Below, in pieces: positions 16,265-63,162 of a DNA stretch of 64,000 bases. The notes under the pieces are model-generated. The model was given only the letters and a program-made list of their open reading frames with translations. It did no database searches and was not told the DNA's origin. The DNA comes from Pseudomaricurvus alkylphenolicus (lineage in GTDB: Bacteria > Pseudomonadota > Gammaproteobacteria > Pseudomonadales > Cellvibrionaceae). The DNA lies in assembly GCF_011683955.1 (NCBI RefSeq), contig NZ_JAAQPI010000007.1:1-64000 (forward strand). Direction: 5' to 3'. Made by a program: the position numbers and the translations under genes. Positions within the stretch are counted from its first letter, which is position 1. Every line of letters starts with the position of its first letter.

Positions 16265-16476
16265 CAAGGGGTCAGATCCTTGATTCTGAGGCACAGATAT
16301 TGATGAACTACGGTGTAAAAGGCGGTCAGGGTGTTGTTTTCGGAGCATTAAAGAGGGCGCCGAAAACAACACCCTGACTGCCGCTTGAGGCACCCAACCG
16401 GAAGCCTTACTTCGCCCTGGGCCGCCTCAATAGTGAGGGATAAAATCAAGGAGTCCGGTCCCTTGATCTGTGGCAC
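16265..16476. repeat. pair of 30-bp modules flanking repeat element A
   Basis: Imperfect direct repeats at 16265-16294 and 16447-16476. Each has a small hairpin (CAAGG...CCTTG) followed by TTGAT and TG(A/T)GGCAC. The same TG(A/T)GGCAC octamer closes all three copies of the large structured repeat. The modules resemble REP-like short palindromes. Confidence 0.6.
16307..16393 (+). repeat. structured repeat element, copy A (short form)
   Basis: CGG-GTAAAAGGCGG at the left and GCCGCTTGAGGCAC at the right bound an inverted repeat: arms about 16321-16343 and 16360-16384, 19 bp of perfect pairing. The loop keeps GGAGCATTAAAGAGGGCG, close to the start of the interior of copy B; the rest of the interior is missing. 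It lies between the convergent genes moaB and the MBL hydrolase and could act as a bidirectional terminator. Confidence 0.8.
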
Positions 16477-16481
16477 CCAAC

Positions 16482-17429
16482 CTAAGACCGGCCAGCCAAC
16501 CAAACCTCCAACCCCTGCGCATTCAACCCCATATCAAACGCAATATGCTCCCGCGCAGTCGCCTCCTCACACCCATGCGCCAACGCCCGAGCCAGCGTAA
16601 ACTCCGTCAGCCGCTCCTGAATCAACGCCCCCCGCTCAAACCCCGCCTCAGGCATCTGCGCTAAAACCTCATCACAGATCGCCACATAACCATCAATCTG
16701 CTCATAAAGCTCCAATGCCAAAGCGGCGGGCTCCTCCACCATCCCATAGTGCGTTAGAAACATGCGCTCGGTACCAAACTCCAACATTCGCTGAATGGAA
16801 GCCTTCAGCGCCTCAGGATTAAACTGCACCGGCGTTGAGGACGGGAAAATAAAAGGCCGCCCCGCCACCAACAACTCACGGTAAGCAATCCCGAACGTAT
16901 CCCCCGTAAAAAAGCCATTACTCACGGACTCATGCACACAAAAATGATGATTGGCGTGGCCCGGAGTATCCAAAAACGTCAGCGTCGAAGCGCCCAGCGT
17001 TAAAGTGGAACCATCCTCAGCGATATGCATCCGATCCTCCGACACCGGGATCAAATCCCCGTACATCTGCTGATAGGCCTCCTCGCCATAGACTGCCGTC
17101 GCCCCCGCCTGCAATTTAGCCGGCTGCGCCATATGCCGAGCCCCACGGGGATGAATCACCAAAGTTGCCCCCTCAATCTCCTGCATCAACAACCCCACAC
17201 CACCGGCGTGATCCAAATGCACATGAGTTGCGATCACATAATCCACCTGATCACGGCCGTAGCTATTATCCGCCAGCCAGGCCAGAATACGAGGCACCGA
17301 GTTGCGTGTGCCGGTCTCGATAATCGCAATACGTCCATCGCGCTCCAGCGCGTAGCACGCCGCCAGGCCCTCACGAATCATACCGCTGTCGATCAGAGTA
17401 ATGCCGTCCATCAAGGGTAAATTGCTCAT
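16482..17429 (-). CDS. MBL-fold metallo-hydrolase
   Basis: A 315-aa metallo-beta-lactamase-fold hydrolase. The metal-binding motif ATHVHLDHAGG (HxHxDH) is intact. Further ligands are likely in TPGHANHHF and in FFTGDTFG, and FLTHYG near the C-terminal side. ATG 17429 is chosen over the longer frame because GGAG lies ten bases upstream. There is no signal peptide, so it is cytoplasmic; the substrate is not evident. It ends at repeat element A. Confidence 0.85.
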   Translation of the reverse strand: MSNLPLMDGITLIDSGMIREGLAACYALERDGRIAIIETGTRNSVPRILAWLADNSYGRDQVDYVIATHVHLDHAGGVGLLMQEIEGATLVIHPRGARHMAQPAKLQAGATAVYGEEAYQQMYGDLIPVSEDRMHIAEDGSTLTLGASTLTFLDTPGHANHHFCVHESVSNGFFTGDTFGIAYRELLVAGRPFIFPSSTPVQFNPEALKASIQRMLEFGTERMFLTHYGMVEEPAALALELYEQIDGYVAICDEVLAQMPEAGFERGALIQERLTEFTLARALAHGCEEATAREHIAFDMGLNAQGLEVWLAGRS

Positions 17430-17562
17430 TGGTACCGCTCCTACACAATTTTCTGTCCGGCAGCTACGATACACCCGGGCTCAAGATGCAACAATAGTCA
17501 CGTGATGTGCTGCCGTTCGAAATCACCCCCCTCTTGAAACTCACTGAATTTCTTCTGCAACA

Positions 17563-17922
17563 TCAGAATAACCATTTCGACCACAGGAGAAGCAATATTC
17601 CATAGGGCTGCCGGTCAAACAATGAGAGTTCATAATAGTCTTCAAGCAGATCCCAAAAGCAAACAACATTCTTCACTGGCTCGGTCATTGGGTCCATGCA
17701 AACGATGGTCATGTCTCCCCGCGCTGCCAGTTCTCGATAGTCACCCAATCGTGCCGTTTCCAGAAACACGACCTTGCGTTGTACCAACTCGATCTGCCGC
17801 AAGTGCTCCTCTACCGAGTCCCGGTAGTTTGTCCAGCAGGGCGTGGCCTCGCCTTTGAGCGATGTCCACAAGTGCAGCAGACTCAAGTTGTCGTTTTCCA
17901 AAATGCAAAAGTTGTATTTCAC
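17563..17922 (-). CDS. small hypothetical protein coupled to enoyl-CoA hydratase
   Basis: A 119-aa protein starting with GTG two bases after the enoyl-CoA hydratase stop, so translational coupling is likely. It is soluble, with several Cys and Trp residues, and has no signal peptide. I recognise no family. It is the last gene of a three-gene leftward set (58-aa protein, hydratase, this). Confidence 0.6.
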   Translation of the reverse strand: MKYNFCILENDNLSLLHLWTSLKGEATPCWTNYRDSVEEHLRQIELVQRKVVFLETARLGDYRELAARGDMTIVCMDPMTEPVKNVVCFWDLLEDYYELSLFDRQPYGILLLLWSKWLF

Positions 17923-17924
17923 GG

Positions 17925-18731
17925 TTATCGCCCCACATACTTGGGTTGACGTTTTTCGGCAAAAGCTCTGGGGCCTTCCAGCGCATCCTGTGTGCGAAAC
18001 ACCGCTGCGCCCTCCTCGTCTTCCAGAGCAAAAGCCTCTTCCAAAGTCATGCCGCTGGTAGCAAGGGCTGTGCGTTTGATGGCCTGCATAGACAGTGGGG
18101 CGTTTCGCTTAAGTTGATCCACTAGACGTTCGACTTCATCGTAAAGATCCTGCGGTTCTACCACCGTATTGATCAGCCCCATCTCCAGGGCGCGCTCGGC
18201 GTTAATGGTCTCGCCGGTCAAGAGGAATTTCATGGCGTGGCACCATGGTAATTGTCTGGGTAAGCGAGAAGTTGAACCCCCGGCGGCAATCACGCCCACC
18301 TTCACTTCTGAAAGTGCGAAAGTTGCATTAGAAGCGGCGATACGAATGTCCGTTGCCAGCATCATTTCGATACCACCTGCCATGGCTGCTCCATTAATCG
18401 CAGCAATCACGGGTTTTGAAAAGGTGCGATTTCGCTGAAACACATGGTAGGGCCAATCGGGGGTATCCATATACCGGTGATCAAATTCGTTCTCGGGCTG
18501 ACGAGCCCCCGTGAGTAAGGGAATGGTGAGTTTAAGATCGCCACCCGAGGAAAAGGCTTTGTCACCTGCACCGGTCAACACCACCAGCTTGACACTGTCA
18601 TCTCTCTCCGCCATTTCCCACATATCCATGATGGCGCACATCATTTCCGGGCAGAAGCTGTTGAAAGCCTCGGGACGATTAAAGGTGACCCAGAGTGCGC
18701 CATCACGGTTTTCGACCAGTAGTACCGACAT
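17925..18731 (-). CDS. enoyl-CoA hydratase/isomerase family protein
   Basis: A 268-aa crotonase-fold protein. The oxyanion-hole segments are AFSSGGDL and GAAMAGGIEM. A Glu at the first catalytic position is seen in ALSEVKVGV. AGGAG precedes the ATG. It probably hydrates or isomerises an enoyl-CoA thioester in fatty acid or side-chain beta-oxidation; the substrate is unknown. It is 15 bp downstream of the 58-aa ORF. Confidence 0.9.
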   Translation of the reverse strand: MSVLLVENRDGALWVTFNRPEAFNSFCPEMMCAIMDMWEMAERDDSVKLVVLTGAGDKAFSSGGDLKLTIPLLTGARQPENEFDHRYMDTPDWPYHVFQRNRTFSKPVIAAINGAAMAGGIEMMLATDIRIAASNATFALSEVKVGVIAAGGSTSRLPRQLPWCHAMKFLLTGETINAERALEMGLINTVVEPQDLYDEVERLVDQLKRNAPLSMQAIKRTALATSGMTLEEAFALEDEEGAAVFRTQDALEGPRAFAEKRQPKYVGR

Positions 18732-18745
18732 CGTTGTCTCCTCTT

Positions 18746-18922
18746 TTACAATGTGTAACGCCGGGCGATCTGCCCATTCAGCGCATTCAAACGTTTGCCC
18801 ATGAAGAGCATCGCTGCAGAATCACGAACAAAGCGCTGAATGTCGTCTGGGGAGACACGGATATCCGCAACACCGGGTGTCGTACCTACACCGTCCAAAC
18901 CGAACGTTCGGGAATCAGACAT
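18746..18922 (-). CDS. 58-aa small protein upstream of enoyl-CoA hydratase
   Basis: ATG-start ORF of 58 codons with GAGAGGGG upstream, 15 bp before the enoyl-CoA hydratase start and in the same direction. Sequence begins MSDSRTFGLDGVGTTPGVAD and has an amphipathic C-terminal helix with MLFMGKRLNAL. No family is recognised. Good ribosome binding site, tight spacing and natural composition argue for a real gene; it may bind or regulate the neighbouring enzyme. Confidence 0.6.
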   Translation of the reverse strand: MSDSRTFGLDGVGTTPGVADIRVSPDDIQRFVRDSAAMLFMGKRLNALNGQIARRYTL

Positions 18923-19144
18923 TCGAGTACCCCTCTCGATTCATCGAATTTGATTCTGAGAGGGTTTGCCGGGATACGGAATGTTCAAAAAAGTACTTTT
19001 GCTTACCCCAAACGGTCATCATCAGCTATAAGCGCATTGATTCAATGTCGTTTTGGAACAAGTCCCCACATCGGGAGTATCGCAGAATTTATACGGGGAA
19101 ATTCAAGCCTACCCGCCCGAGAGACGGGTAATAACTTTGTACTT

Positions 19145-21796
19145 TTACATTTCTTCTGGAGGGAACAGGGTTGGCTGAGGCGCTTTGGTGCCTACCTTAC
19201 CGCCAACAAGGCCAGGAATACTCATCGCATTGTGAGGAAGAAACGCCCCTCCGAAATAGAGTCTATGCTCCCCAAGGAGTTGCTGATTGCTTTTGTTCAC
19301 AAACTCCAACGGCACCTGGTGCCCTTTATAGATGGAGTTTTCCTCTGGCATTGGTACAAAATCTGGAACCTGTTGATCGAAATAGACACCGAGGTCGCGA
19401 TAACCTTCAAAGTCAAATGTGATGCGGTCTGGCATTAGGAAGAACAACGGATGCTTGGCTGAACTCCCCCGCTCCTCACCATTGAGAATTTTGGCATTCA
19501 GTGTAAAGTCTGGCTCCAGACTGAAGTTAACCACATCGGCAATGGAAGATAAGAATGAATCGGACAGTTGAATATCTCTGAACAACAGGTTGCGAGGCGC
19601 CAGTTGTGGATTTTCGATACGGAAGTTGATTTTATTGCTGAACCTTCCGCCTTGAACAAGGACATCACCTTGGGTTGGGACATCCATGCCGAGGCCAAAT
19701 CCTTCGATTTCGAAATTTTCAAACTTCCAGGATACCAGATTGTGAAAATGCCCGGCATCTACACCAATCTTGTTGACGTCACCATCGCCCACCAAACGAA
19801 CATTCTTAAGTTCAACGCCTTCGGAAGAATGAAAACCCACGCCATACTTTTTGACATTCCAGATCGTAAGATCTTCGAAAGTAGACCCCAGCTGCTCAAC
19901 ATACTCCTCGGTTACCCACTGCTGCTCAACCGTGAAATTGTGGTGCGCATGCAAATAGAACACCTCCAGTCCTTTGGTGGTATTGTAGGCTTTATTGTTT
20001 TTGAAGGAAGATATGGGCATATACCAAACGTCGATTTTCCCGTTGGTATCCAATAGATGGCTATTAGGGAATTGCGCGACGTCGATTTTTGTTAATCCGG
20101 TTTCTCCATCTAAGGTTTCAATGAGACCTTCCGTCCAATAGATATAAGCGTGCCCGGAAGCCCCTGCAACAACATTGCCTTCCATTCTCGGCATACCGCC
20201 ATGCAGCCAGAAGCCGTCACCTTGAAACGCAAAGTCCTGACGATCTTCTCTGACATCAACGACGGCTTCAATACAATCGCAATTGAGAGGATCTTTGGGG
20301 TTGATGGTACGTAAAGCGATGTTGCCTATAAACGAGCCCCTTTCATCGCCGGCCTCCGTTTGATAAGCCCCTCCAACAACGTTATAAGAAACATTATCGA
20401 CAAAGTCGACATTGCTGGAATGATTCACATAAGCCCAGCCGGGATTGTCCTCGACCACCGATCCACGAACTCTGGCGGGTATTGAGTCCAAGCCTGTTCC
20501 ACCTCGATGAAAATGTATCGAGTAACGACCTCGAATATTGTTCCCTTCCAGTTGTTCTCTAACAAGCTCCTCCCCGGACCAGGTATAGTCATCGATGGGG
20601 ATCGTCTTATCCGTTCTGCCCAGCTGGAAAAACCTGGCGTGATTCACATCGACGTTCAGGTTATGCATAAACATAACGTGTCCACGATGCTTTATATCGG
20701 CATTTTCAGAGAGGAACTCTACGTTGCGGGTCAAATTAGCCACATGAACCGCCAGATCATTTCTAAACGCGACATGATCTTTTTGCAAAGGGCTGGATAA
20801 ATAAACCACATTTCCTTCTATGGCAGCAATCGTGACCACTTCGTCACTCGAAGGATCATCCACATCGGTGGCGGCTACGACCAATCTGTCACCCACTCGC
20901 CATCCGATGGGCTCTGAAGATAGCAACAATTCCATTTCATTTCTTTGTGGATGCCTGGCCAGCTCCAACCAAGAGGTCTTTTCCGCACCCCAGATTTCTA
21001 CCGGCCCCATCAAGACGGCTCCACGATAGAGTTGCTGCGGATCAACATTTCGATCAATGGGGCCAAAATCAGCAAAAATAATTCGAGCGCTCACGTCATT
21101 ATCAACGGGTTGATCTTCACTTCCGATCTCAAGCCGACCATGATGGTTGCTTATCAATGTGTCAACGGTAAGTTGGGTATTAACCTTCGTCGAAAATCGC
21201 AAATTGCCGTCGATGGTAATACGCTTTAACCGGCTTGGAATTTCACCATCAACGGTCAAGGTTATGCCAGAGGGAATGATTATCTCCGCACCGTCAGTCG
21301 GTAAGGCACCGTTTACCCAGATGCTTTCGTCTGTCCAGTTTCCCGAAGAAAGCAGCTGGGCAGGCTGATCTTGGCGCTGATCTACATTAGCGTCATCGTC
21401 ACCGGCGACGGAATCGGATTCGACGTAGTCTACAATTGCAGACAGTGAGAACTGATCGTCTCTCTCCTCTATGAGATCAACGACGTAGGCCTCATCCTTA
21501 TCTCCTCCCTCTATGACCAGTTTGGGTATGTGCAGAGTATCTGCTTGGGGATCATAGATGGCGATGTTTTTATCGATAAGCTCCGCACCTTCATATTCAG
21601 CAACATCGATGGCCGTGAAGACATAGTCGCCTTGATTGATCATGTCTACGGAATAGATTACATCCGGCGGGTCGCCCTCAATATGCAAGCTTGGGATATA
21701 TAGCGTGCCGTTGGATGGGTCGTAGATTGATTCATTATCTGCACTGGCCATCATTGGAGTGAAAAAGATAATCAGCGTAAAGACGATATATTTCAT
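19145..21796 (-). CDS. secreted G8-domain, beta-helix protein
   Basis: An 883-aa exported protein. The Sec signal is MKYIVFTLIIFFTPMMASA. Two imperfect repeats of about 45 residues follow (YDPSNGTLYIPSLHIEG near 26 and YDPQADTLHIPKLVIEG near 81). A G8 domain spans roughly 150-270 (GNWTDESIWVNGALPTDG ... IPSGITLTVDG). A long beta-helix region contains RYSIHFHRGG near residue 420, like the histidine motif of the animal CEMIP/TMEM2 group. It is probably periplasmic or extracellular and may bind or act on carbohydrate. Neighbours give no clear partner. Confidence 0.8.
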   Translation of the reverse strand: MKYIVFTLIIFFTPMMASADNESIYDPSNGTLYIPSLHIEGDPPDVIYSVDMINQGDYVFTAIDVAEYEGAELIDKNIAIYDPQADTLHIPKLVIEGGDKDEAYVVDLIEERDDQFSLSAIVDYVESDSVAGDDDANVDQRQDQPAQLLSSGNWTDESIWVNGALPTDGAEIIIPSGITLTVDGEIPSRLKRITIDGNLRFSTKVNTQLTVDTLISNHHGRLEIGSEDQPVDNDVSARIIFADFGPIDRNVDPQQLYRGAVLMGPVEIWGAEKTSWLELARHPQRNEMELLLSSEPIGWRVGDRLVVAATDVDDPSSDEVVTIAAIEGNVVYLSSPLQKDHVAFRNDLAVHVANLTRNVEFLSENADIKHRGHVMFMHNLNVDVNHARFFQLGRTDKTIPIDDYTWSGEELVREQLEGNNIRGRYSIHFHRGGTGLDSIPARVRGSVVEDNPGWAYVNHSSNVDFVDNVSYNVVGGAYQTEAGDERGSFIGNIALRTINPKDPLNCDCIEAVVDVREDRQDFAFQGDGFWLHGGMPRMEGNVVAGASGHAYIYWTEGLIETLDGETGLTKIDVAQFPNSHLLDTNGKIDVWYMPISSFKNNKAYNTTKGLEVFYLHAHHNFTVEQQWVTEEYVEQLGSTFEDLTIWNVKKYGVGFHSSEGVELKNVRLVGDGDVNKIGVDAGHFHNLVSWKFENFEIEGFGLGMDVPTQGDVLVQGGRFSNKINFRIENPQLAPRNLLFRDIQLSDSFLSSIADVVNFSLEPDFTLNAKILNGEERGSSAKHPLFFLMPDRITFDFEGYRDLGVYFDQQVPDFVPMPEENSIYKGHQVPLEFVNKSNQQLLGEHRLYFGGAFLPHNAMSIPGLVGGKVGTKAPQPTLFPPEEM

Positions 21797-21871
21797 GCGA
21801 ATTCCAGCCTCTATTGATTAGGGGTTCATTCGTAAATCGATTTGGTTGAAACCATGCTAGCACCGAGTGCT

Positions 21872-21906
21872 CCTCCAACAGATCAGTGCTTTGTGGGAGG
21901 TTTTTT
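21872..21906 (+). terminator. rightward intrinsic terminator upstream of the MATE gene
   Basis: CCTCC-A-ACA pairs with TGT-G-GGAGG (one mismatch) and six T follow. It reads rightward between the divergent G8 and MATE genes. It could shield the MATE gene from upstream transcription or end a short transcript. Confidence 0.5.
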
Positions 21907-22052
21907 AGAGTTTTGTTGGAGTTTTGTAATCATGAGGAGTATTCGGGGCAGAGATCCGCAGAGTGAGCTATTAGACTGATTGAGTGCCAGGGAATGGCGA
22001 TCTGAGGACCGGAAGTCCTCACAGCCCTTGAAATTGCCCCCACTCGCCTATA

Positions 22053-22068
22053 TTGTCAATTCTGACAA
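22053..22068. promoter_or_regulatory. TTGTCA-N4-TGACAA operator at the MATE gene
   Basis: Perfect inverted repeat with 6-bp arms, 15 bp before the MATE start codon. The same palindrome with a different 4-bp spacer stands at 26177, just before the TetR gene. Confidence 0.65.
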
Positions 22069-22082
22069 TTATCGAGGTCCCC

Positions 22083-23432
22083 ATGTCTGACAGCACCAAT
22101 CACGCCCTGCAGGGCGCCCCTTTCCAGAGCTTCCTGCGCTACGCCATCCCATCCGCTCTGGGGCTGCTGGCCATGTCTACGGCCTCCGTGGTGGACGGCA
22201 TCTTTGTAGGGCGCTACGAGGGCAGTGAGGCGCTGGCGGCCATCAACCTGATCATCCCGGTGTTCTCCATTACCTTTGGCATGGCCTTTATGATGGCGGT
22301 AGGAGGCTCTGTGGCCGCCGGCAAATGCGTGGGCGAGAAGGACCATCGCGGCGCCAGCAATATCTTCAGTAAAACGCTGATGGCCACCCTCACCTATGCC
22401 TCCCTGCTGCTGGCGCTGGGGCTCTATGCCGCTGAACACCTCTACGCCCTGCTGGGAGCCGGCCCTGAGCTGTTTCCGCTGATGGCGGAGTACTTTGAAA
22501 CCCTGATCTGGTTTCTGCCCGCCCAGCTGCTGACGGTGACCTATTACTTTTTCGTGCGTATTGCCGGCTACCCCAGCCTCGCCTCGGCGGGCCTGATCGT
22601 GGGCGCCGCAGCCAACCTGGTGCTGGACTGGCTGTTGATCGGCGTTTGGGGGCTGGGGCTGAGAGGCGCTGCTATGGCCACGGGACTTTCGAGCGTGATC
22701 ACTATCCTTACCCTGTTGTTCTACCTGTTCAAACCCGGTCGCTGGATGCGCTTTTACTGGCGCCAGTCTCGCTGGATAGAGCTTGGACGCGCCTGCTTTA
22801 ATGGTCTGTCGGAATTTATTAATGAGATATCCGCCGGCGTGGTTACCTTTATCCTCAACCTGGTGATCATTCAACGCTTGGGGGTTGATGGCGTGGCCGC
22901 TTTTACCGTGGTCAGCTACAGCCTGTTTATTGGTTTGCTGCTGGCCTTTAGCGTAGCGGACGCTTTGCAGGCCGTCTGCAGCCAATGCTTTGGCGCACGC
23001 AACGCCCAGCGCATGCAGCAATTTCTGGCCATCGCTACGACCACGGTGATCATCAACGCGGTGATCTTTATCGTGCTGCTTCTAAGCCAGGGCACACAAA
23101 TGGTGAGTCTGTTTGTCACTGACGGAGATACCAGGCTGGTCAGCATCGCCGAAGACTTTATCCAGGTGCTCTGGCCCGTATTCGTGTTTAACGGCCTTAA
23201 CGTGGTGGTCTCCGCCTACCTCACCTCCATCCACCATTCGGTAGCCTCAGCCAGTGTCGCCACTTTGCGCAGTCTGGCTTTGCCTCTGCTGCTGTTGGCA
23301 ATACTGACTCAGTGGCTGCCAAACTGGCCTTTCCTGCTGGCACTGACCGGTGCCGAAGCGCTGACACTGCTGGTGGCCGCCATGCTGTTTTACCGCTTTC
23401 GGCCACAAAGGGTATTGGCAGAAACGCTGTAG
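22083..23432 (+). CDS. MATE-family multidrug/toxin exporter
   Basis: A 449-aa inner-membrane protein with about 12 helices in two homologous halves, as in MATE (NorM/VmrA-like) cation-coupled exporters. The first half starts FLRYAIPSALGLLAMSTASVVDGIFVG and the second contains GLSEFINEISAGVV. ATG 22083 is chosen because AGG precedes it and the operator lies upstream of it; the longer frame starts in the operator. Repression by the TetR at 25583 is inferred from the shared palindrome. Confidence 0.9.
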   Translation: MSDSTNHALQGAPFQSFLRYAIPSALGLLAMSTASVVDGIFVGRYEGSEALAAINLIIPVFSITFGMAFMMAVGGSVAAGKCVGEKDHRGASNIFSKTLMATLTYASLLLALGLYAAEHLYALLGAGPELFPLMAEYFETLIWFLPAQLLTVTYYFFVRIAGYPSLASAGLIVGAAANLVLDWLLIGVWGLGLRGAAMATGLSSVITILTLLFYLFKPGRWMRFYWRQSRWIELGRACFNGLSEFINEISAGVVTFILNLVIIQRLGVDGVAAFTVVSYSLFIGLLLAFSVADALQAVCSQCFGARNAQRMQQFLAIATTTVIINAVIFIVLLLSQGTQMVSLFVTDGDTRLVSIAEDFIQVLWPVFVFNGLNVVVSAYLTSIHHSVASASVATLRSLALPLLLLAILTQWLPNWPFLLALTGAEALTLLVAAMLFYRFRPQRVLAETL

Positions 23433-23446
23433 CATGAATTCGGAGT

Positions 23447-24193: not shown

Positions 24194-24268
24194 AGCCACT
24201 ATTCTAACACGCGTATTTATCATTTCTGCCTATACTTAAGACAGGTCTGCGGCTTATCAGGGGGAAGT

Positions 24269-24964: not shown

Positions 24965-25112
24965 GAGAAGCTCCGGCCATGTTTGAATCTTTAACCCAGT
25001 AAAAAACCTGGTTTATCTTCATCAACATCTACTCTGTTCGGGCTCATTTTACCTCAGGCCTGTAGGAATACTTGACCCTTTCAGCCTGAAAAAAGACCAA
25101 TTCGGACAATTT

Positions 25113-25329
25113 GTGTCTTCGCTGACATTGAGAAACGATTATCCCGATCTGGAGATTGCTTTTATCAACGCCGGCATCGTGGAAATCGGCCCGCTTGCAG
25201 AAAGAGAGCCCAGTGCGATTGATCGCGAGACCGATGTCGATTGGCGGTACTTTTGCCTTACAGGGAAGCAGTGTCTATTCTGCCACCAAATTTGCCGAAA
25301 ACATCAATATTCGGATAAATTGCAGATAA
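25113..25329 (+). pseudogene. remnant of a short-chain dehydrogenase
   Basis: The frame from 25113 shows an SDR-like YPDLEIAFINAGIVEIGPLAE segment (the NAG motif). The continuation is in another frame from 25246: GTFALQGSSVYSATKFAENINIR, with the YxxxK catalytic motif. The about 40 residues expected between them are missing, and the N-terminal cofactor site and the C-terminal half are absent. So deletion and frameshift have destroyed the gene. Confidence 0.75.
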
Positions 25330-25416
25330 AATCCGCGTTCTTCGCCAAACTCGCAAGCCGCGACGAGCATCTCCAGAGCTCAGCCAGAAAAAAGTGATAA
25401 ATTTGTGAGAATTTTG

Positions 25417-25444: not shown

Positions 25445-25448
25445 GTAT

Positions 25449-27047: not shown

Positions 27048-27072
27048 ACCATTAAGGCACAAGACTGCGCAT

Positions 27073-27240
27073 ACCTCGGTGTAAAGGGTGGTCGGGGTGT
27101 TGTTTTCGGAGCGTAAAGAGCGAGCGCCGATGGAGTCAAAAAGACCGGCGTTTTTTGCCGGGCTTTTTGGGGACTGAGGGCAGCCCGGAGGGCCGCCGAT
27201 CAGCGCCGAAAACAACACCCCGACCGCCCGTTGAGGCACG
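27073..27240 (+). repeat. structured repeat element, copy B (full form)
   Basis: Left end CTCGGTGTAAAGGGTGG and right end CCGCCCGTTGAGGCAC. Outer stem 27087-27109 with 27206-27228: 23 bp with one G-T wobble. Inside are hairpin 1 (27134-27175; AGTC-AAAAAG-ACCGGC against GCCGGG-CTTTTT-GGGGACT) and hairpin 2 (27178-27197; loop GGA). The predicted fold is therefore a three-way junction. Hairpin 1 and the outer stem differ from copy C in both strands of each stem. It lies between the convergent HD and Usp genes. Confidence 0.85.
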
Positions 27241-27292
27241 GGACTAAAAGCCCATTCACGATGAAAATTTTACAGAACCTGAACATCTAAAC

Positions 27293-27322
27293 GGTGGATT
27301 ACGGCGCAAGCGCCTAATCCAC
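27293..27322. repeat. short REP-like palindrome
   Basis: GGTGGATTA-CGGCG-CAA-GCGCC-TAATCCACC: a near-perfect hairpin of a kind found in intergenic regions of many proteobacteria. It is 50 bp beyond repeat element B, in the 360-bp gap between convergent genes. A second small hairpin (CGGGAT-TAC-ATCCCG) follows. Confidence 0.7.
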
Positions 27323-27407
27323 CCTACGAGAGTTTTCGGGATTACATCCCGATCATAAGATTACGATTAAATTCCGGTCATGGAATTTCAAGACCAGATT
27401 GCTGTTG

Positions 27408-55573: not shown

Positions 55574-55596
55574 TTGCCCTTTTTCTTTCGAGGGTT

Positions 55597-55624
55597 GGGG
55601 GAAGTTCTCTTCCCCCCGCTTTTC
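55597..55624 (+). terminator. intrinsic terminator after TonB receptor 2
   Basis: GGGGGAAG-TTCT-CTTCCCCC then CGCTTTT, 24 bp after the receptor stop and before the ferredoxin-reductase start at 55641. Partial read-through may lower expression of the two downstream genes. Confidence 0.7.
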
Positions 55625-55640
55625 CCCGAGGTTATACGTT

Positions 55641-56570
55641 ATGGCTGAACTCTGCTTTGAACAAAACGCCTATGTCGTGGAAGATGGAGATACCGTCCTC
55701 AATTCTTTGCTCAGGCGCGGCCACGCCATTCCCAACTTCTGCCGTAGCGGCTACTGCCAATCCTGCCTGATGCGATGTGACCAGGGAACGCCGCTGCCCA
55801 GCGCCCAAGCAGGTCTCGAAGATTCTCTGATTGAAAGTAACCACTTTCTCGCCTGCCAATGCCCCGTGTTTATGCCCATGACCATCTCCCACCCGGCACC
55901 AGAAATTCGCACCCGTTTTGTGGCCATGGTACGTGGCAAACAGAAGATGGACGATAAGATACTTCGGCTGCAACTGAGTCCCGGCCATGCCTTTCACTAC
56001 CACGCCGGGCAATACACCACTCTGATAGATATCAACGGTCACAGGGGCGAATACCCCATAGCCAGCCTGCACAACGACAGCGGGATGATGGAATTTCACA
56101 TTTCCATTAGTGAGGCAGATCCCTTCAGTCAGATACTGGCGGAGCAACTGGAAGAAGGAGACGCGCTGGAAATCCAGACAGCGCTGGGCAAAAGCTATTA
56201 CCGCCCCAAGTTGCTTGATTGCCATCTGTTGTTCATCGTGGAACAGGAAGGCCTGGGCGTCGCCACCGCCATCATCGAAGACGCCTTGCAACAGCAACAC
56301 GCGGCGCCAATATCATTGATTGCGTTGGATACCGCGAGGCTCACTGACTATAGCCGTCAAACTCTGACTGATATCGACCCGATGGTAAACCTGTTGCAGT
56401 TGCCGCTGCTGCCTCAATCCTTTACTCCGTGCAGCGATCTGCAATGGAGCCGTTGTCACGCCTTTACCTACACCTATCAGGAATCGGTTCTTAGAAACCG
56501 TTTGTTGAGCCAGGGTATGGTTACCGCGCAGATCTCATCGCTGGTTCCACCAAAGGGTCCCAGCCAGTGA
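55641..56570 (+). CDS. ferredoxin-reductase-like protein with degenerate flavin/NAD sites
   Basis: A 309-aa protein. The N-terminal plant-type [2Fe-2S] domain is intact (CRSGYCQSC and a later Cys in FLACQC). An FNR-like FAD domain and NAD-like domain follow. The FAD motif RxYS is replaced by EYPIAS, and the NAD motif GGxG is replaced by EQEGLG, so classic reductase activity is doubtful. ATG 55641 follows the terminator. It overlaps the AraC gene by four bases (GTGA), which implies coupling. It may be an electron carrier or a regulator partner. Confidence 0.75.
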   Translation: MAELCFEQNAYVVEDGDTVLNSLLRRGHAIPNFCRSGYCQSCLMRCDQGTPLPSAQAGLEDSLIESNHFLACQCPVFMPMTISHPAPEIRTRFVAMVRGKQKMDDKILRLQLSPGHAFHYHAGQYTTLIDINGHRGEYPIASLHNDSGMMEFHISISEADPFSQILAEQLEEGDALEIQTALGKSYYRPKLLDCHLLFIVEQEGLGVATAIIEDALQQQHAAPISLIALDTARLTDYSRQTLTDIDPMVNLLQLPLLPQSFTPCSDLQWSRCHAFTYTYQESVLRNRLLSQGMVTAQISSLVPPKGPSQ

Positions 56571-57529
56571 GTGAACGTCTGTTTGCCCTGCAGGACTTTA
56601 ACTTTGTCGCCACTGACCGACTGGATGTGGTCCAGGACACCTTTAACCGCCTCTTCCAGACCAGGCGTATCTCCCAACTCAACCTTGAACAGTCTCCGGA
56701 CATCAACATCTCACTGGCCAGACTGCCCTACTCCAATCTGTTTGTAGGCAGTTTTGGCTGCAACATCAATGCTGAACTTGATGAGGAACTCGAAGACTAT
56801 CACTTGTTTGTTCCGCTCAGAGGCGAAATCCTGTACCGCGGTGCCAACAGCTATCGAGTAACACCGGGACAAGGGTTGATGGTCTCGCCCGGAAGCCAAC
56901 TGAACATCAGCTGGAAACACGATTGCTACGGCATTAACCTGGTGACTGCCAAGGAACAAATGCAACGGGTCGCCAAAGAACAGGTGGGGGTTGACGAGGT
57001 ACCGCCCCTACCACTGCTGATTGATCTGACCTCTGGGGTGGGGCTGAGCCTGGCCAATATTCTACAGACAATATTAACCGAGCTGGAAGACGAACAGTCG
57101 CTTCTCAGCCGCGGCATCACTACCCGCGCTCACAATGAACTGTTACTGAGCGCCCTGCTGCAAACTGCCGATCGCTCCCAGGAGATACCTGCCGGGTTAC
57201 CGGCACCGGTCGATCTGGCCCTGAACTATATTGAACAGCATTTGCAAGAACCCATTACGCTCAAACAACTGGCCACTGCCAGCCACACCAGTTGTCGCAA
57301 CCTGCAGTTGTTGTTTCGCAAATACCTGCAACAGTCACCCATGGCGGTGATCAAACGCGAGAAACTCAACCATATCCGCCGCCAATTGCTACAGGCGGAT
57401 GCGGAGACCACCAGCGTAGCGGACCTGGCGGCCTCTCACGGGTTCTATCATGCCAGCAATTTTACCCGGCTTTATCGTCAGGCGTTTGGAGAGACACCAA
57501 CCGAAACATTAAAATCCAAAAAGGAATAG
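56567..57529 (+). CDS. AraC-family transcriptional regulator
   Basis: A 320-aa regulator with an AraC_binding_2-like N-terminal domain and a C-terminal HTH pair (LKQLATASHTSCRNLQLLFRKYLQ and VADLAASHGFYHASNFTRLYRQAFGETPTE). GTG 56567 overlaps the preceding stop, so it is translated from the same mRNA as the [2Fe-2S] protein. The motif DEQSLLSRGI and general layout match the AraC regulator at 40694, so the two look like paralogues controlling parts of this island. Confidence 0.9.
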   Translation: MSERLFALQDFNFVATDRLDVVQDTFNRLFQTRRISQLNLEQSPDINISLARLPYSNLFVGSFGCNINAELDEELEDYHLFVPLRGEILYRGANSYRVTPGQGLMVSPGSQLNISWKHDCYGINLVTAKEQMQRVAKEQVGVDEVPPLPLLIDLTSGVGLSLANILQTILTELEDEQSLLSRGITTRAHNELLLSALLQTADRSQEIPAGLPAPVDLALNYIEQHLQEPITLKQLATASHTSCRNLQLLFRKYLQQSPMAVIKREKLNHIRRQLLQADAETTSVADLAASHGFYHASNFTRLYRQAFGETPTETLKSKKE

Positions 57530-57555
57530 CCGCGCAGCAATCAATCGCTTGCGAC

Positions 57556-58491
57556 TCAGTCCGAATAAAGAAAAGCGCGCCCTCTCAGATTGTCATTGGC
57601 TCTGGCAATATTGATCGCTGCTTTGATCGCGCCGATGATGGCATTAGTCGCTGCCGATTGTGTTTCCTGCAACGAAGAGACTAGGCAAACCGTGCGCTCC
57701 ATGGGCGGGTTAACTATTTTCCGCGCCGAAATCAGTTTTGTTCTCGTATAATCGTGAATCAGATCCCAGGGAGCAAAGCTGTGCGCCAGACCCGCCTCCA
57801 CAATCTTCAGGCTGGCATGCGCTGACTGAAAGTCCAGGGAATAGTTGAGCTGTACACCATTATCAAAAGCGTATTTTTCTACCGTTCGCCGCATGGAATG
57901 GGTGCCTGGGCTGGAAACGATTGGCAGGTCTTCAATATCCTTTCCGTCGATAGATGTCACTTGATCGAGGATCGGATCGTAGGCGCTAACCAAATAGAGA
58001 TGCTCGATATACAAGGGCACACACTTCTTGTCCATTTGTTCGGGCATGTCGTAAGTAATCATCACGTCAAGCAAATCGTTGTCGTAAGAGCGCTCCAGGC
58101 TGGTGGTATTACCCTCTTCAATAATCAGGTTAATATCGGGAAAGTTTTCCAATAGCAGTTTAAACAGCGGTGCCGCCAGGGCATTGTTGGCACCGTAGGG
58201 CAAACCCAGCCTGACGTTGCCACTCGGGCTTTTCTGAGTACCCTGCAATGAGGCCCTGAGATCATCAATCTGCCGCAGGATGGCATGAGCTCCGATCAGA
58301 AACTGCTCACCTGCATAGGTCATTGCCACGCCTTTTCTGCCCTTATTAAGCAGCTGAACCCCCAGATCCGTCTCCAGGTTCTTGATGCTCATACTCAGAG
58401 CCGGATGGCTGATATGGATATTTTCGCTGGCCTGGCGCAGATTACCGGCCTCCACAGCGGCGATAAAATGTCGTAACTGTCTGATTTCCAT
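57556..58491 (-). CDS. LysR-family transcriptional regulator
   Basis: A 311-aa regulator. N-terminal HTH (about 1-60): MEIRQLRHFIAAVEAGNLRQAS and SHPALSMSIKNLETDLGVQLL. The substrate-binding domain follows, of normal length. It is divergent from TonB receptor 3 with 237 bp between them, so control of the receptor-sulfatase pair is likely. It converges with the AraC gene 26 bp away. Confidence 0.92.
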   Translation of the reverse strand: MEIRQLRHFIAAVEAGNLRQASENIHISHPALSMSIKNLETDLGVQLLNKGRKGVAMTYAGEQFLIGAHAILRQIDDLRASLQGTQKSPSGNVRLGLPYGANNALAAPLFKLLLENFPDINLIIEEGNTTSLERSYDNDLLDVMITYDMPEQMDKKCVPLYIEHLYLVSAYDPILDQVTSIDGKDIEDLPIVSSPGTHSMRRTVEKYAFDNGVQLNYSLDFQSAHASLKIVEAGLAHSFAPWDLIHDYTRTKLISARKIVNPPMERTVCLVSSLQETQSAATNAIIGAIKAAINIARANDNLRGRAFLYSD

Positions 58492-58728
58492 AGCTTTTAT
58501 CTCACAGGCTATTATGGATAGAAGGTCCTTGTATCAACGCAAGCTTCTCGCTGCAGCCGTTAACTGACTTTTATTAAGAAAAACTTACCCTTTTTGTCAA
58601 AAAAAACAAATTTATTTAACCAACAGCAGAGCTTACAGTTTATCGACACATTGTGGTACATATAAACCACATTGCGGCAAGCGAACTATCATAACAACGA
58701 AAAAGCTCTCTGAGCAGGAGATAAAGAC

Positions 58729-61188
58729 ATGCAGAACACTGAGTTCAGTGGTAAATACGCTTTGAGAAGCGCCATTGCTCTCGCCACTTTGGCGACTTCA
58801 ATGGAAAGTTTTACAGCATACGCAGAAAGCAGTTTCTCCATTGAAGAGGTCGTGGTTACCGCACGGAGGGTAGAAGAAGGACTGCAGAACGCTCCAATCG
58901 CCGTTTCTGCCTTCACCGGCAAGGATCTGGAAAACCGCGGCGCCATCGATGTTACTGACGTGGCAGCAGCCTCGCCCAATGTTCACTTCCAGACCGGGGG
59001 TTCCACCAGCGGTATGTCCGCTGCACCCACAGTGTTTATTCGAGGAATCGGGCAAAGCGATTTCAACATCAACAATGATCCTGCGGTGGGAATGTATATC
59101 GACGGAATATACCTGGGCCGCATGGTGGGCAGCTTGACCGATCTTATGGACCTGGAACGTGCAGAAGTCTTGCGTGGTCCCCAGGGCACGCTGTTTGGCC
59201 GTAACTCCATTGGCGGCGCAATCAATCTGATCACCAAAAAACCCAGCACTGATGAAGGTTTTAATGGGGATGTCATGGTTTCCCTCGGCGAGCGGGATCT
59301 GCGCTATGTCAAAGCCTCTGCCAATGTCCCCATATCCGATAAAGTGGCGGCCAGACTGGGGGCCTTCTACCGGGAACGCGATGGCTACGTCGATGCCGTC
59401 CAATATGATGACCTTAAGTTGGGCGGCGAGGATGTCTGGGGCGTGCGTGGCGCACTCAGGATGGATCTGAGTGAGAACGCCACGCTTGATCTTGCCGTTG
59501 ACTGGTCAGAGAGGCGTGATCCCCCTGCCGCAGTCATTCCGCTGCAACTGGGTAATGTTTCCCTTAATCCCGGCTCGGGAAATGTCGCCGGAGATGATCG
59601 CTCCAGTTTTGCCAGCGGTTTTCGTTTTAATACCGGATTGAATCACTATGGTTCTGCGCCGCTGCCGCCACCCAACCCCGCCTGGGTTTCATCTGATACC
59701 ACCACCTGTAGCAATCAGTCGCTGGTGAACGCCAGTCTCGCCTGTTACGGCAATGCGCATATACTGGGGGACGACAAAGTCAACTCAGTTTGGGTGGATA
59801 AGAATGGTAATAAAATAACGCCCGAACAGGTACTGGATGTGGGCGGCCTGTCGGCAGTATTGACCTGGGAGTTACCGTTCGGGACCTTGACCTCAACAAC
59901 CGCCTATCGGGAAATGGATGCCAGCTTCAATAATGACAATGACTATACCCCCTATGTTATTTTCCAAAACCTCAACGATAATTTTGAGCAGGATCAATTC
60001 TCACAGGAAATCCAATTAACCGGTTCCTTCACCGAAGATCTGACCTACGTTGCCGGCTTGTACTATTTCAAGGAGGAAGGGCTGCAAGTGGTCTCCCTGG
60101 TGACCCCGCTGCTACCGCCTGCGGGAGCACCGCCGGCGGCGGCCACCCTGCCGTTCTTTCAGACCATTGATCGAGAAGTAGAAAACGAATCTAAAGCGAT
60201 CTACGGACAGGTAGTCTACAACTTAAACCATGACCTGCGATTAACCTCTGGAGTCCGCTATACCGAAAACGAAAAAGACATTGGTCTGTTCCTGTTTCGG
60301 GGAGACGAAGCTGCTCCCTGGTTCACAGTGGAAGGTACCGATCAACAATCAGCGGCTGAAACCAATGTTCTGCTAAACCTCTCCTGGGATGTCAATGAAG
60401 ACATGATGCTGTATGGGCAATACGCCAATGGATTTCGTGATGGCGGTTGGCCGGTACGATTCCCGGGTCTTCCGGCAGGCATTCCGCCATTGGACACTGT
60501 AGACTTTGGTCCTGAAACCGTCGACTCCTTTGAATTGGGGCTCAAATCAACCTGGCTGGATGGCGACTTGCGGTTGAACGCCGCGCTGTTCACCACCAAA
60601 TACGATGATATGCAAATTGAGTTTTCCGATCCTGTGTTGAACGGCGCCCCCAACACTTCCAATGTCGGTGAAGCGACCATCTCCGGACTGGAAGCTGAAC
60701 TCAATCTATTGGTCACCGACAATCTGCGTTTTGATATCTCCCTGGGGTATCTGGACGCTGGTCTGGACAAAATTGAAGGTGGCAACCTGAATTCCGGCGC
60801 AGACAACACCCGCACGGTACTGACCACCAACAACGAAATGCCCTACACCCCGGACTGGCAGATTTCCATCGGTGCAAATCACTCTATCAATCTTGATGGG
60901 GGGGCCTATATACGCACACGGATCGACTGGGTTTACACCGACGAACAGTTCTACACCATCGAAAACAGCCACCGCAATTTTCAGGACTCCTACTCTATCG
61001 TCAATGCCAACGCAACCTATGTGTCACCCGACGAAACCTGGGAAATCACACTGGGCGCCAAGAACCTGACCGACGAAGATTATCTGACGACCTCAAGAAC
61101 CCAGGCTGACTCTTCAAGTGTGTTTGGCAGTGTCGCCCGCCCGCTGGAAGTATATATCCAGGCGCGCTACCGCTTTGGTAGCCAATAA
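58729..61188 (+). CDS. TonB-dependent outer-membrane receptor (3)
   Basis: An 819-aa receptor. Signal peptide, EEVVVTARRVEEGLQNAPIAV, plug with RGIGQSDFNINNDPAVGMY and AEVLRGPQGTLFGRNSIGGAINLITK, and a barrel ending VYIQARYRFGSQ (short tail after the last strand). ATG 58729 has GGAG upstream. The downstream sulfatase 85 bp later suggests that it takes up a sulfated compound. Confidence 0.93.
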   Translation: MQNTEFSGKYALRSAIALATLATSMESFTAYAESSFSIEEVVVTARRVEEGLQNAPIAVSAFTGKDLENRGAIDVTDVAAASPNVHFQTGGSTSGMSAAPTVFIRGIGQSDFNINNDPAVGMYIDGIYLGRMVGSLTDLMDLERAEVLRGPQGTLFGRNSIGGAINLITKKPSTDEGFNGDVMVSLGERDLRYVKASANVPISDKVAARLGAFYRERDGYVDAVQYDDLKLGGEDVWGVRGALRMDLSENATLDLAVDWSERRDPPAAVIPLQLGNVSLNPGSGNVAGDDRSSFASGFRFNTGLNHYGSAPLPPPNPAWVSSDTTTCSNQSLVNASLACYGNAHILGDDKVNSVWVDKNGNKITPEQVLDVGGLSAVLTWELPFGTLTSTTAYREMDASFNNDNDYTPYVIFQNLNDNFEQDQFSQEIQLTGSFTEDLTYVAGLYYFKEEGLQVVSLVTPLLPPAGAPPAAATLPFFQTIDREVENESKAIYGQVVYNLNHDLRLTSGVRYTENEKDIGLFLFRGDEAAPWFTVEGTDQQSAAETNVLLNLSWDVNEDMMLYGQYANGFRDGGWPVRFPGLPAGIPPLDTVDFGPETVDSFELGLKSTWLDGDLRLNAALFTTKYDDMQIEFSDPVLNGAPNTSNVGEATISGLEAELNLLVTDNLRFDISLGYLDAGLDKIEGGNLNSGADNTRTVLTTNNEMPYTPDWQISIGANHSINLDGGAYIRTRIDWVYTDEQFYTIENSHRNFQDSYSIVNANATYVSPDETWEITLGAKNLTDEDYLTTSRTQADSSSVFGSVARPLEVYIQARYRFGSQ

Positions 61189-61272
61189 CCCCTCGCTCAC
61201 AGCTCTCTTCCCCATTTCATCCCTCTGCTGGGCAAAAAAGGGGAAGAGCCACTAAGGCTCCAGAATTAGACT

Positions 61273-62970
61273 ATGAAAAAAACAATTCAGTTGTTGGCCG
61301 CGATAACCACTGTTGTCCTGACCGCTTGCCGGACAGAACAAACCGCTGTAGTAACGGCGGCAGAAAACGAAGCCTCCAATCCCAGCCGACCCAATATCCT
61401 GCTTATCGTTGCCGACGACCTCGGTATGCTGGACATTGGTGCCTTTGGCAGCGAAATCCGAACCCCCAACATCGACAAACTGGCCCGCAGCGGCATCAGC
61501 TTCAACAACTTTTATACCTCCGCCACCTGCTCCCCGACCAGGGCCATGCTTCTCTCCGGTACAGACAGCCATACCGCCGGCCTGGGAAACATGGTTGAAC
61601 ATATGGCCCCCAACCAACGAGGGAAGAGCGGCTATGAAGGCCACCTGAGCTCAAACATCGTGTCGGTTGCCACCCTGCTCAGAGACAACGGCTACCGCAC
61701 CTACATGGCCGGCAAATGGCATCTGGGGATGAAATACGAACAACTCCCCTACAACCGCGGCTTTGATGAATCCTTCGCGTTAATGCAAGGAGGATCGAGC
61801 TACTTCAACGACATGATGGGGTTAACCTCCAAAGTGCCAAGAGCACACTATCGCCGCAATGGTGACATCGTCACCGAATTGCCATCCGACTTCTATTCTT
61901 CAGAGTACTACGCCTCGTTTATTATCGATCAACTGAAAGCAGACAAAGCAACCGGCAAACCCTTCTTCGCCTACCTTGCCTTTACCGCTCCTCACTGGCC
62001 CCTGCAAGTCAAAGATGAGCACCTGAACCTTTACCAGGGCCGTTACGACCAGGGTTATGACGCACTGTACGAAAAACGCGTGGCAGCAGCCAAGAAACAT
62101 GGTGTATTTCCACCCGACGTCCACGACTCGCAGCCTCCGGCACACATCAAACCCTGGTCATCGCTAAGCGAACAAGAACAGCGCAGACAATCCCGCACTA
62201 TGGAAATCTACGGCGCCGTGGTAGAAAGAATGGACCACCATCTGGGGCGCGTGATTGAACACCTGAAAGACAGCGGTGAGCTGAATAACACCCTGATCGT
62301 ATTTATGTCAGACAACGGCGCAGACGGATCGGACAGATCAAAACTTCCGGGCAATGACACCTGGCTGCCACAAGCCTGGAATCTCAGCTACGAAAACATG
62401 GGAAGAATAGGCTCATACGTCTACCCCGGAGCCGCCTGGGCGCGCACCAGCGTCGGGCCTTACAGAATGTACAAATCATTTCTGTCCGAAGGCGGAATCA
62501 AATCTCCGGCCATCATCGTTCATCCGAACCTCAACGCCAGCAACACAATGACAAATGAATTTATTACCGTGAAAGATATCACGCCAACGATTCTGGACTA
62601 TGCCGACGTTCGCCACCCGGGCACTCACTACCAAGGACGAGCCGTAAAGCCACCAACTGGAGTCTCACTATTACCGTTCCTCACCGGCAGGGACAATAAC
62701 CCGCATCGACCCGATGAAATTATTGGTTGGGAGCTGTTCGGCCAAAAAGCCATCAGGAAAGACAACTGGAAACTGGTGCATCTCTCCTCCAAACCAAAGT
62801 GGCTGGTAAAACCCGATCTTTCCGATCAATGGGCCCTTTACAACCTCGCGGAAGACCCGACAGAACTCAACGACCTGTCAGCGGTAGAAGCCCAGATATT
62901 TTCAGAAATGAAAAAACACTGGCAAGAATACGCAACAAAACAAAAAGTGGTACTTCCAGAATGGAAATAA
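61273..62970 (+). CDS. arylsulfatase-type lipoprotein sulfatase
   Basis: A 565-aa type I sulfatase. A lipoprotein signal with lipobox LTAC (Cys19) anchors it to a membrane. Metal-binding ADDLG is near residue 47. The formylglycine motif is C86-S-P-T-R followed by AMLLSGTDSHTAGLG, which is close in pattern to Pseudomonas arylsulfatase AtsA. MSDNGADGSD supplies a further metal ligand. It follows TonB receptor 3. An anaerobic-type maturase or FGE is not in the window. Confidence 0.93.
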   Translation: MKKTIQLLAAITTVVLTACRTEQTAVVTAAENEASNPSRPNILLIVADDLGMLDIGAFGSEIRTPNIDKLARSGISFNNFYTSATCSPTRAMLLSGTDSHTAGLGNMVEHMAPNQRGKSGYEGHLSSNIVSVATLLRDNGYRTYMAGKWHLGMKYEQLPYNRGFDESFALMQGGSSYFNDMMGLTSKVPRAHYRRNGDIVTELPSDFYSSEYYASFIIDQLKADKATGKPFFAYLAFTAPHWPLQVKDEHLNLYQGRYDQGYDALYEKRVAAAKKHGVFPPDVHDSQPPAHIKPWSSLSEQEQRRQSRTMEIYGAVVERMDHHLGRVIEHLKDSGELNNTLIVFMSDNGADGSDRSKLPGNDTWLPQAWNLSYENMGRIGSYVYPGAAWARTSVGPYRMYKSFLSEGGIKSPAIIVHPNLNASNTMTNEFITVKDITPTILDYADVRHPGTHYQGRAVKPPTGVSLLPFLTGRDNNPHRPDEIIGWELFGQKAIRKDNWKLVHLSSKPKWLVKPDLSDQWALYNLAEDPTELNDLSAVEAQIFSEMKKHWQEYATKQKVVLPEWK

Positions 62971-62989
62971 CAATGAGGTACCACACAGC

Positions 62990-63162
62990 GGGTACCGCGG
63001 AGTAAAGGGTGGCTGGGTGTCCCCTGGAGGGGCATTTCAAGCGAACGCCGAAAGAGTCAATGAGACAAGCGTTTTTCAGCTTGGCTCATTGGGGACTGAG
63101 GGAAGCCCGGAGGGCCGGTAGCGTGCCCCTCCAGGGGATTCCCAGCCGCCCGATGTGGCACA
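62990..63162 (+). repeat. structured repeat element, copy C (full form)
   Basis: Left end GTACCGCGGAGTAAAGGGTGG and right end CCGCCCGATGTGGCAC. Outer stem 63008-63033 with 63125-63150, a new sequence (GGCTGGGTGTCCCCTGGAGG) compared with copy B. Hairpin 1 is 63055-63097 (AATGAG/CTCATT and CAAGC/GCTTG instead of AAAAAG/CTTTTT and CCGGC/GCCGG in B). Hairpin 2 near 63100-63116 is conserved. It lies between the convergent sulfatase and enoyl-CoA hydratase genes. Confidence 0.85.

Follow-up and report, generated by a model that had tools for sequence, protein, structure and literature searches.

In the window, a 64,000-nucleotide stretch of Pseudomaricurvus alkylphenolicus DNA (contig NZ_JAAQPI010000007.1, positions 1 to 64,000), we found that three structured repeats, copies A, B and C, are members of a dispersed high-copy family. 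We suggest, with confidence and doubt in about equal measure, that they represent a family of non-autonomous, putatively mobile repeats recognised as a folded single strand. This suggestion, drawn from sequence comparison, is based on the dispersed high copy number, the fold and its covariation, the strand asymmetry, the inverted pairing of copies in several genomes and the patchy presence of the family; on a core model built from other organisms, which finds 60 copies in this genome and none in five congeners; and on an orientation not tied to transcription and a site that, across relatives, is filled, holds a relic beside a different copy or lacks the element. The best reading is a REPIN/ERIC-like element, REPIN-like in behaviour and not a repetitive extragenic palindrome (REP) by definition, and most likely a parasite-like repeat that would be moved by a borrowed enzyme.

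Copies in the Window

Copies A, B and C were confirmed at 16307–16393, 27073–27240 and 62990–63162, with the end boxes that an earlier note on this DNA had assigned to them and with the interior that it had recognised in B and C and that is absent from copy A. The exchanges between paired arms that it had pointed out (AAAAAG/CTTTTT to AATGAG/CTCATT, and CCGGC/GCCGG to CAAGC/GCTTG) are real in the alignment. The folding energies of A, B and C had z values of -8.0, -7.0 and -6.9, respectively, against dinucleotide shuffles, and none of 200 shuffles was as good in any of the three. The parts of the copies are as follows.

16287–16294, + strand: copy A, left direct box TGAGGCAC (sequence, family alignment)
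16321–16346, + strand: copy A, outer stem 5' arm, 26 nt, 92% complementary to the 3' arm (fold)
16357–16382, + strand: copy A, outer stem 3' arm (fold and alignment)
16385–16399, + strand: copy A, right direct box TTGAGGCACCCAACC (box search)
27052–27066, + strand: copy B, left direct box, degenerate, TTAAGGCACAAGACT (box search)
27086–27112, + strand: copy B, outer stem P1, 5' arm (fold, stem count)
27115–27206, + strand: copy B, conserved core (covariance model R1, 57.0 bits, E 6.4e-11)
27137–27169, + strand: copy B, hairpin P2 with the conserved A.G mismatch at 27144/27162 (fold, R1, pair test)
27183–27193, + strand: copy B, hairpin P3, GCCC-GGA-GGGC, with the invariant GGA loop (R1, alignment, pair test)
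27203–27229, + strand: copy B, outer stem P1, 3' arm (fold, stem count)
27231–27245, + strand: copy B, right direct box TTGAGGCACGGGACT (box search)
62974–62981, + strand: copy C, left direct box TGAGGTAC (sequence)
63007–63034, + strand: copy C, outer stem P1, 5' arm (fold, stem count)
63036–63128, + strand: copy C, conserved core (covariance model R1, 54.9 bits, E 1.9e-10)
63124–63151, + strand: copy C, outer stem P1, 3' arm (fold, stem count)
63154–63161, + strand: copy C, right box TGTGGCAC (sequence)

A second box follows copy A at 16468–16482, and the left box of copy C lies 3 bases after the stop codon of a sulfatase open reading frame (61273–62970). In the family alignment, copy A and another copy in this genome, L008, have lost the interior and retained the outer stem; copy A is an internal-deletion derivative without a three-way junction, its interior having apparently been deleted at a CCGAA microhomology.

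Structure and Covariation

In a full copy, a conserved three-way-junction core is enclosed by a long outer stem whose sequence varies freely. The core contains a tandem G.A beside a CC/GG step and two hairpins: P2, in which an A.G mismatch is almost fixed, and the short P3, whose GGA loop is invariant. Pairing was assessed in 32 sequences of the own genome (31 loci, one of which is copy B, together with copy C), aligned by MAFFT without structure fitting; the set leaves out copy A and L008, which have no interior, four other loci (L005, L022, L039 and L154), and most copies found by covariance model alone. The structure comprises 52 pairs, namely 27 in the outer stem, five in the lower junction stem, two in CC/GG, two in AG/CU, 12 in P2 and four in P3, and the core inside the 27-pair stem measures about 90 nt. 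We found that 97.7% of the 1591 cells were paired and that 34 of the 52 pairs had changed on both sides (178 cells). Over 500 shuffles, the means were 84.9% paired, 15.6 ± 2.1 double-change pairs and 38.8 cells, and the observed values were never reached. Slid registers gave 9–17 double-change pairs and 14–38 cells, a comparison that favours the structure, as it was read from the same sequences. The covariation is far above both controls, and RNAalifold, in its own prediction, returned 40 pairs, 28 of them double-changed, at -65.1 kcal/mol. These data support the three-way junction of the earlier note as the core fold of the family, although not for copy A.

All 32 sequences have the GGA loop in P3, the G-A on either side of the tandem G.A step and the mismatched A of P2; the partner G of this A is found in 31. 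The CC/GG step beside the tandem G.A covaries, C-G being replaced by U-A in 3 of 32. When the core structure was applied to 25 sequences of other organisms, 96.0% of the cells were paired, as compared with 30–52% in slid registers; these sequences were picked by an exact motif, so that P3 was scarcely free to vary. In orthologous copies of another Cellvibrionaceae genus (11 comparisons at seven sites), the stems differ and the pairing is kept: we counted 20 double changes from one Watson-Crick pair to another and 17 single changes from Watson-Crick to G.U, against seven single and four double changes to other mismatches. Some of these stem differences may reflect replacement by other copies.

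Strand Asymmetry of the Imperfect Pairs

The earlier note had taken the joint change of the arms as selection for a fold. The constraint holds, but joint change alone is no proof of it, as template switching can also yield paired arms. If the arms were merely copied from each other, or read as a duplex, G.U and A.C pairs would be expected equally often. In the 32-sequence alignment the imperfect pairs comprised 48 G.U and 5 A.C cells (binomial p 7e-10), or 28 and 4 when the commonest G.U pair was left out; counted by pair, there were 17 G.U and 5 A.C (p 0.017). In ungapped outer stems, the counts were 62 G.U vs 1 A.C for the own genome (41 of 43 regular-expression rows, those with at least 14 paired columns), 28 vs 10 for the other genus (25 rows, p 0.005) and 16 vs 7 for the remaining genomes (17 rows, p 0.09). 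All three groups lean the same way, the own genome strongly and the remaining genomes weakly. In the other genus, a single column in the loop beside the core accounts for six of the 10 A.C cells. As the rows are related, some being overlapping or duplicate entries for a single copy (L022 twice; L227, of the other genus, twice) or close kin, the cells are not independent and the p-values exaggerate the evidence. Since G.U outnumbers A.C, asymmetrically by strand, these sequences indicate selection on a single-stranded fold, and it is the strand as written that is constrained, whether as RNA or as single-stranded DNA (ssDNA).

Copy Number and Extent of the Element

The own genome (8.88 Mb in 70 contigs) gave at least 40 long BLAST matches to copy B, itself included, at E 1.8e-23 or better, a lower bound as 40 of 83 candidates were scored. 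R1, a covariance model of the core trained on 25 sequences, all from other organisms, found at least 60 copies in the same genome, each at E 3.6e-4 or better, among the best 150 of 2469 candidates; in the window it found copies B and C. The three copies of the earlier note exist, but understate a family of at least 60. An alignment of 30 BLAST loci with A, C, L005 and L008 showed a single family. As a separate observation, the 60-copy expansion coincides with a larger genome, the five congeners measuring 4.0–5.7 Mb.

The element proved longer than first described. Most aligned copies have a direct box on both sides, either TGAGGCACNNAAC or a degenerate version, giving a unit of about 190 bp with the boxes included. 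Exact boxes of this type occur at 34 sites in the genome, as compared with three for the reversed pattern. We read the nine exact sites that do not lie at known copies, together with two known references. Six of the nine lie at full, truncated or collapsed elements (L141, L145, L147, L148, L154 and L162), L141 being collapsed and L148 truncated at its 3' end, and three (L146, apparently coding, L152 and L165) have no recognisable element. Because six of nine newly read sites are at elements, the box mostly belongs to the element itself, and the possibility that TGAGGCACNNAAC is a pre-existing target site was rejected.

Distribution of the Family

An exact core pattern, GACTGAGGGNAGCCCGGAGGGCC, matched 97 stretches of other genomes, both beta- and gammaproteobacterial. 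Silvimonas terrae held the largest share, and S. amylolytica, Chitinolyticbacter, Chitinibacter, Deefgea, Andreprevotia and Formivibrio were also represented, as were Haliea metagenome-assembled genomes, Seongchinamella unica and several gammaproteobacterial metagenome-assembled genomes. A phage or plasmid origin was rejected, as copy B had no match in plasmids or phages and viral contigs, scanned with this one exact motif, gave no match.

As the earlier note had proposed, further copies were sought with a covariance model in the own and related genomes, and many were found. Within the family Cellvibrionaceae, R1 was positive in 5 of 144 genomes, namely the own genome and four of another genus with 2, 8, 10 and 9 copies; the five congeneric genomes gave no R1 match, even with laxer filters. 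Order-wide, 14 of 390 genomes were positive, the own included, and in a class-wide sample of 274 it was the sole positive. These large searches used stricter filters, with which weak matches are lost; with laxer filters, 3 of 29 relatives were positive, one of them (G419) with two tandem copies. Judging from these matches, the family is patchy in other gamma- and betaproteobacteria.

The flanks of the foreign copies showed some regularities. In Silvimonas, many copies (e.g., L046, L060, L099 and L116) have tandem hexamers (GTTGCC, GTTGCT and the like) immediately before them and a hairpin of the type GTTACTTTCTTTG...CAAAGAAAGTAAC after them. On the right of gammaproteobacterial copies (e.g., L079, L094, L105 and L226), the 3' arm is followed, by eye, by [AG]CCG, 5–7 bases and GGMAC or GCAC, a tail that resembles the GGCAC box of the own genome.

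Genomic Context and Pairing of Copies

The window copies are all on the + strand, each behind a + gene and between convergent genes (MoCF/metallo-beta-lactamase-fold, HD/Usp and sulfatase/enoyl-CoA hydratase). Context was read for 46 of the 60 own copies, from long open frames and without a gene caller. Eighteen copies lay between convergent genes, 12 with and 12 against tandem genes and three between divergent genes, and one had no neighbours; 12 of the 45 with two neighbours were oriented against both. The even split between tandem genes suggests that the orientation of the element is not tied to transcription. A long frame overlaps the element in 8 of the 46. Among 1630 stop-to-stop frames lying no more than 1.5 kb from a copy, clustering revealed no recurring neighbour family beyond ordinary ones; the largest clusters were spurious translations of repeats, followed by ordinary families at no more than seven loci, and a dedicated neighbour gene was rejected. 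An intrinsic terminator was also rejected: in a scan of copies B and C, P2 of copy B fits one on both strands, and none was found within the hairpins of copy C.

Adjacent copies within 400 bp (28 pairs, mostly from other genomes and with duplicate records of one site removed) were 5'-to-5' inverted in 21 cases, 3'-to-3' in two and direct in five, and one of the direct pairs, L317, seems to enclose an unscored inverted copy. Inclusion of two marginal Silvimonas pairs (L112 and L068; partner E 0.02–0.04) brings the inverted 5'-to-5' pairs to 23 of 30. The partners often differ in stem type (e.g., L054, L079, L094, L314 and L315). Two more complex arrangements were observed. At L229 (G394:C2:14800-18000), three tandem elements have cores at 442, 629 and 816, an exact 187-bp spacing, and the middle element combines, by eye, the 5' arm of one stem type with the 3' arm of another, as unequal recombination predicts. 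At L312 (G664:C3:260400-261100), a head-to-head pair is nested in further inverted repeats, forming a composite palindrome of several hundred bases.

A Variably Occupied Site and the Search for an Enzyme

One site in the other genus differs among relatives. Genomes G393 and G394 carry the same copy there, and G391 has a 3' relic of that copy and a different, inverted copy; in G390 there is no element, and the conserved flanks lie 146 bp apart, as compared with about 370 bp. We also considered that the single arm of the G393 copy found in G391 had been captured from the insertion site. This was rejected; a relic is likelier, because the element's own 3' tail follows the arm. Among the congeners, no clean empty site was found for copies A or B.

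Mobilisation by a linked REP-associated tyrosine transposase (RAYT) was rejected for the 22 loci of Y1 transposase genes examined. Another repeat was noticed in the window: copy B is closely followed by a GGTGGATTA...TAATCCACCCTACG hairpin (about 27291–27325), similar repeats flank the own Y1 transposase genes L138 and L139, and the hairpin is probably a TIRtron-type repeat.

Discussion

The findings can be accommodated in the following scheme. The element would be recognised as a folded single strand, the one written here, by an enzyme encoded elsewhere that would read the end boxes together with the invariant three-way-junction core; of the outer stem, only pairing would be required. The recognised form is likelier to be ssDNA than RNA, in the likeliest case ssDNA exposed at the replication fork, and a transposase that recognises hairpins would act on it in trans, as TnpA_REP acts on REPs; TnpA_REP has been reported to bind ssDNA strand-specifically (PMC8266576). 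Copies landing between genes would be tolerated and may later decay by internal deletion (copy A, L008 and L141) or undergo tandem recombination (L229).

Several observations weigh against this scheme. No clean empty site with defined ends or a target duplication was found. No mobilising gene was found among the Y1 loci and neighbours examined, no insertion sequence (IS) database having been searched. The Y1 domain PF01797 does not track the element, since G390 has two copies and no PF01797 hit and G386–G388 have PF01797 and no copies; the 22 Y1 loci (10 genomes, about 1.5 kb of flank included) gave no R1 match; and the repeat on the flanks of the own Y1 genes L138 and L139 is, by eye, another one, TAGGGTGGATTA...TAATCCACC. 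The GTAG tag is absent from the own-genome consensus, in which the hairpin foot reads GnGTnAAnGGTGG; some copies of the other genus read GGTAGAAGG at the foot (L211), and this is not general. Few close inverted pairs occur in the own genome, at two sites (C55, about 180.4–180.8 kb, and C34, about 303.1–303.8 kb), the second exceeding 400 bp. The excess of G.U over A.C is less marked in the other genus and falls short of significance in the remaining genomes, and a gapped count gave G.U/A.C values of 77/50 for the own genome, 36/40 (reversed) for the other genus and 34/17 for the remaining genomes; this count extended into the internal loop and flanks and was superseded by the ungapped one. Finally, an excess of G.U fits ssDNA and RNA alike and does not discriminate between them.

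The last point bears on the main rival, an RNA function, which we consider a serious though lesser possibility. Here the element would act after transcription, as a multi-copy small RNA or a module of 3' untranslated regions (UTRs), for example a protein-binding or RNase-III-processed hairpin, and its dispersal would be secondary. A structured RNA predicts the same strand asymmetry, and the fixed tandem G.A, A.G mismatch and GGA loop resemble RNA motifs; the window copies all follow a gene on their own strand, the orthologs in the other genus keep pairing while their stems diverge, and bcr repeats are often transcribed in UTRs (PMC3446304). However, the 12 of 45 copies directed against both genes and the equal numbers with and against tandem genes are not in line with such a role, copies B and C were not seen to share a promoter or terminator, and we found no conserved neighbour gene family and no Rfam family. 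If RNA were instead the mobile intermediate, copied by a reverse transcriptase in trans like a bacterial short interspersed element, then the strand-specific fold, invariant core and varying arms would also be explained. We regard such a retroposon as quite improbable: no poly-A or target duplication was noticed, inverted pairing is not expected, and the sole truncated copy read, L148, has its 5' end and lacks the 3' end, the opposite of the usual target-primed remnant.

A classical miniature inverted-repeat transposable element (MITE), whose long inverted arms serve as terminal repeats for a DDE transposase on double-stranded DNA, would account for the size, intergenic location, inverted arms, patchy distribution and internal-deletion derivatives. 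A transposase that reads duplex ends needs a conserved end sequence, whereas in this element the arms are subterminal and freely varying, the conserved part is the interior and the end boxes are direct rather than inverted. Strand asymmetry is not expected of a MITE, and no recurrent transposase lies near the copies examined (no IS database was searched); we consider this explanation unlikely. An explanation without any selection on the fold, in which template switching at replication keeps the arms identical and the rest is drift of an old repeat, seems very improbable to us and is already disfavoured. DNA template switching is reported to create and maintain hairpins and paired arms (PMC8794818), and the two arms do change length by one base in step (alignment columns 19 and 150; L217 vs L222); because length changes hit both arms at once, template switching likely contributes some of the joint arm change. 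Nevertheless, it predicts equal numbers of G.U and A.C, against the 48 vs 5 and 62 vs 1 observed, and the core is conserved between beta- and gammaproteobacteria.

If the element is read as a mobile repeat that is recognised in folded single-stranded form, a close likeness is to the REP/REPIN/BIME group, which shares with this element dispersed intergenic imperfect palindromes, a strand-specific fold and neighbours arranged as inverted pairs. Of 430 REPIN doublets, 93% are reported as inverted (PMC3116915), to which the 21 of 28 adjacent pairs found here, few of them from the own genome, may be compared. Our 18 convergent, 24 tandem and three divergent contexts among 45 likewise recall the mostly convergent or tandem locations described for REPs (PMC3733652). 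The element is not a REP, however, having no general GTAG, a different size (about 150–190 nt, as compared with 20–40 nt) and no linked RAYT; in addition, unlike in REPs, its three-way-junction core is conserved across orders while the outer stem varies freely, and its ends carry direct GGCAC-type boxes. ERIC/RU-1, YPAL/RU-2 and Correia/NEMIS are likewise described as intergenic repeats of 100–200 bp with long stem-loops, presumed to be moved in trans (PMC2229807). YPAL has variable target duplications, and ERIC, Correia/NEMIS and others have mostly 5'-TA ends and terminal inverted repeats, in contrast to the direct end boxes, conserved core and varying arms of this element. The repeats bcr1–bcr18 of the Bacillus cereus group, which the present family resembles by description, are also dispersed, being either MITE-like or endowed with conserved folds of RNA type, and about half of their copies are reported as expressed, in UTRs or between genes (PMC3446304); they were described from B. 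cereus strains, whereas the core reported here spans beta- and gammaproteobacteria. TIRtron repeats, which flank Y1 transposases as terminal inverted repeats, are similarly hairpin-forming and dispersed in Y1-bearing genomes (PMC3733652), but the own Y1 genes carry the repeat TAGGGTGGATTA...TAATCCACC and not this element.

The family is apparently undescribed. In agreement with the earlier note, which knew no named family with these motifs, Rfam gave no match at gathering score in the whole window, and relaxed scans (window, copy C and six loci) gave only implausible weak hits of microRNA type over the elements. In the open-licence literature, searches by the element's motif strings, among the papers listed, and by words for the host genus and the topic returned no description, and repeat-type terms returned only known comparators. 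A further reading, which we hold to be rather doubtful, is that the family represents a distinct class of bacterial mobile element. Its signal would be the folded single strand itself, with the invariant three-way junction, the tandem G.A and the GGA-loop hairpin; its enzyme would be neither RAYT nor DDE, possibly with an RNA intermediate, and head-to-head dimers would be the replicating unit in several lineages.

To our knowledge, how most such small structured repeats move is still open; an account from 2007 states that there was no experimental support for the movement of ERIC, YPAL and similar repeats by transposases (PMC2229807). The present family would offer a clean test of this problem, because its arms vary and yet pair, its core is fixed across bacterial orders, and its imperfect pairs reveal which strand matters. 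It would also provide a definable single-strand substrate with which the enzyme may be fished, and a genome with 60 copies to set against congeners that yielded no match.

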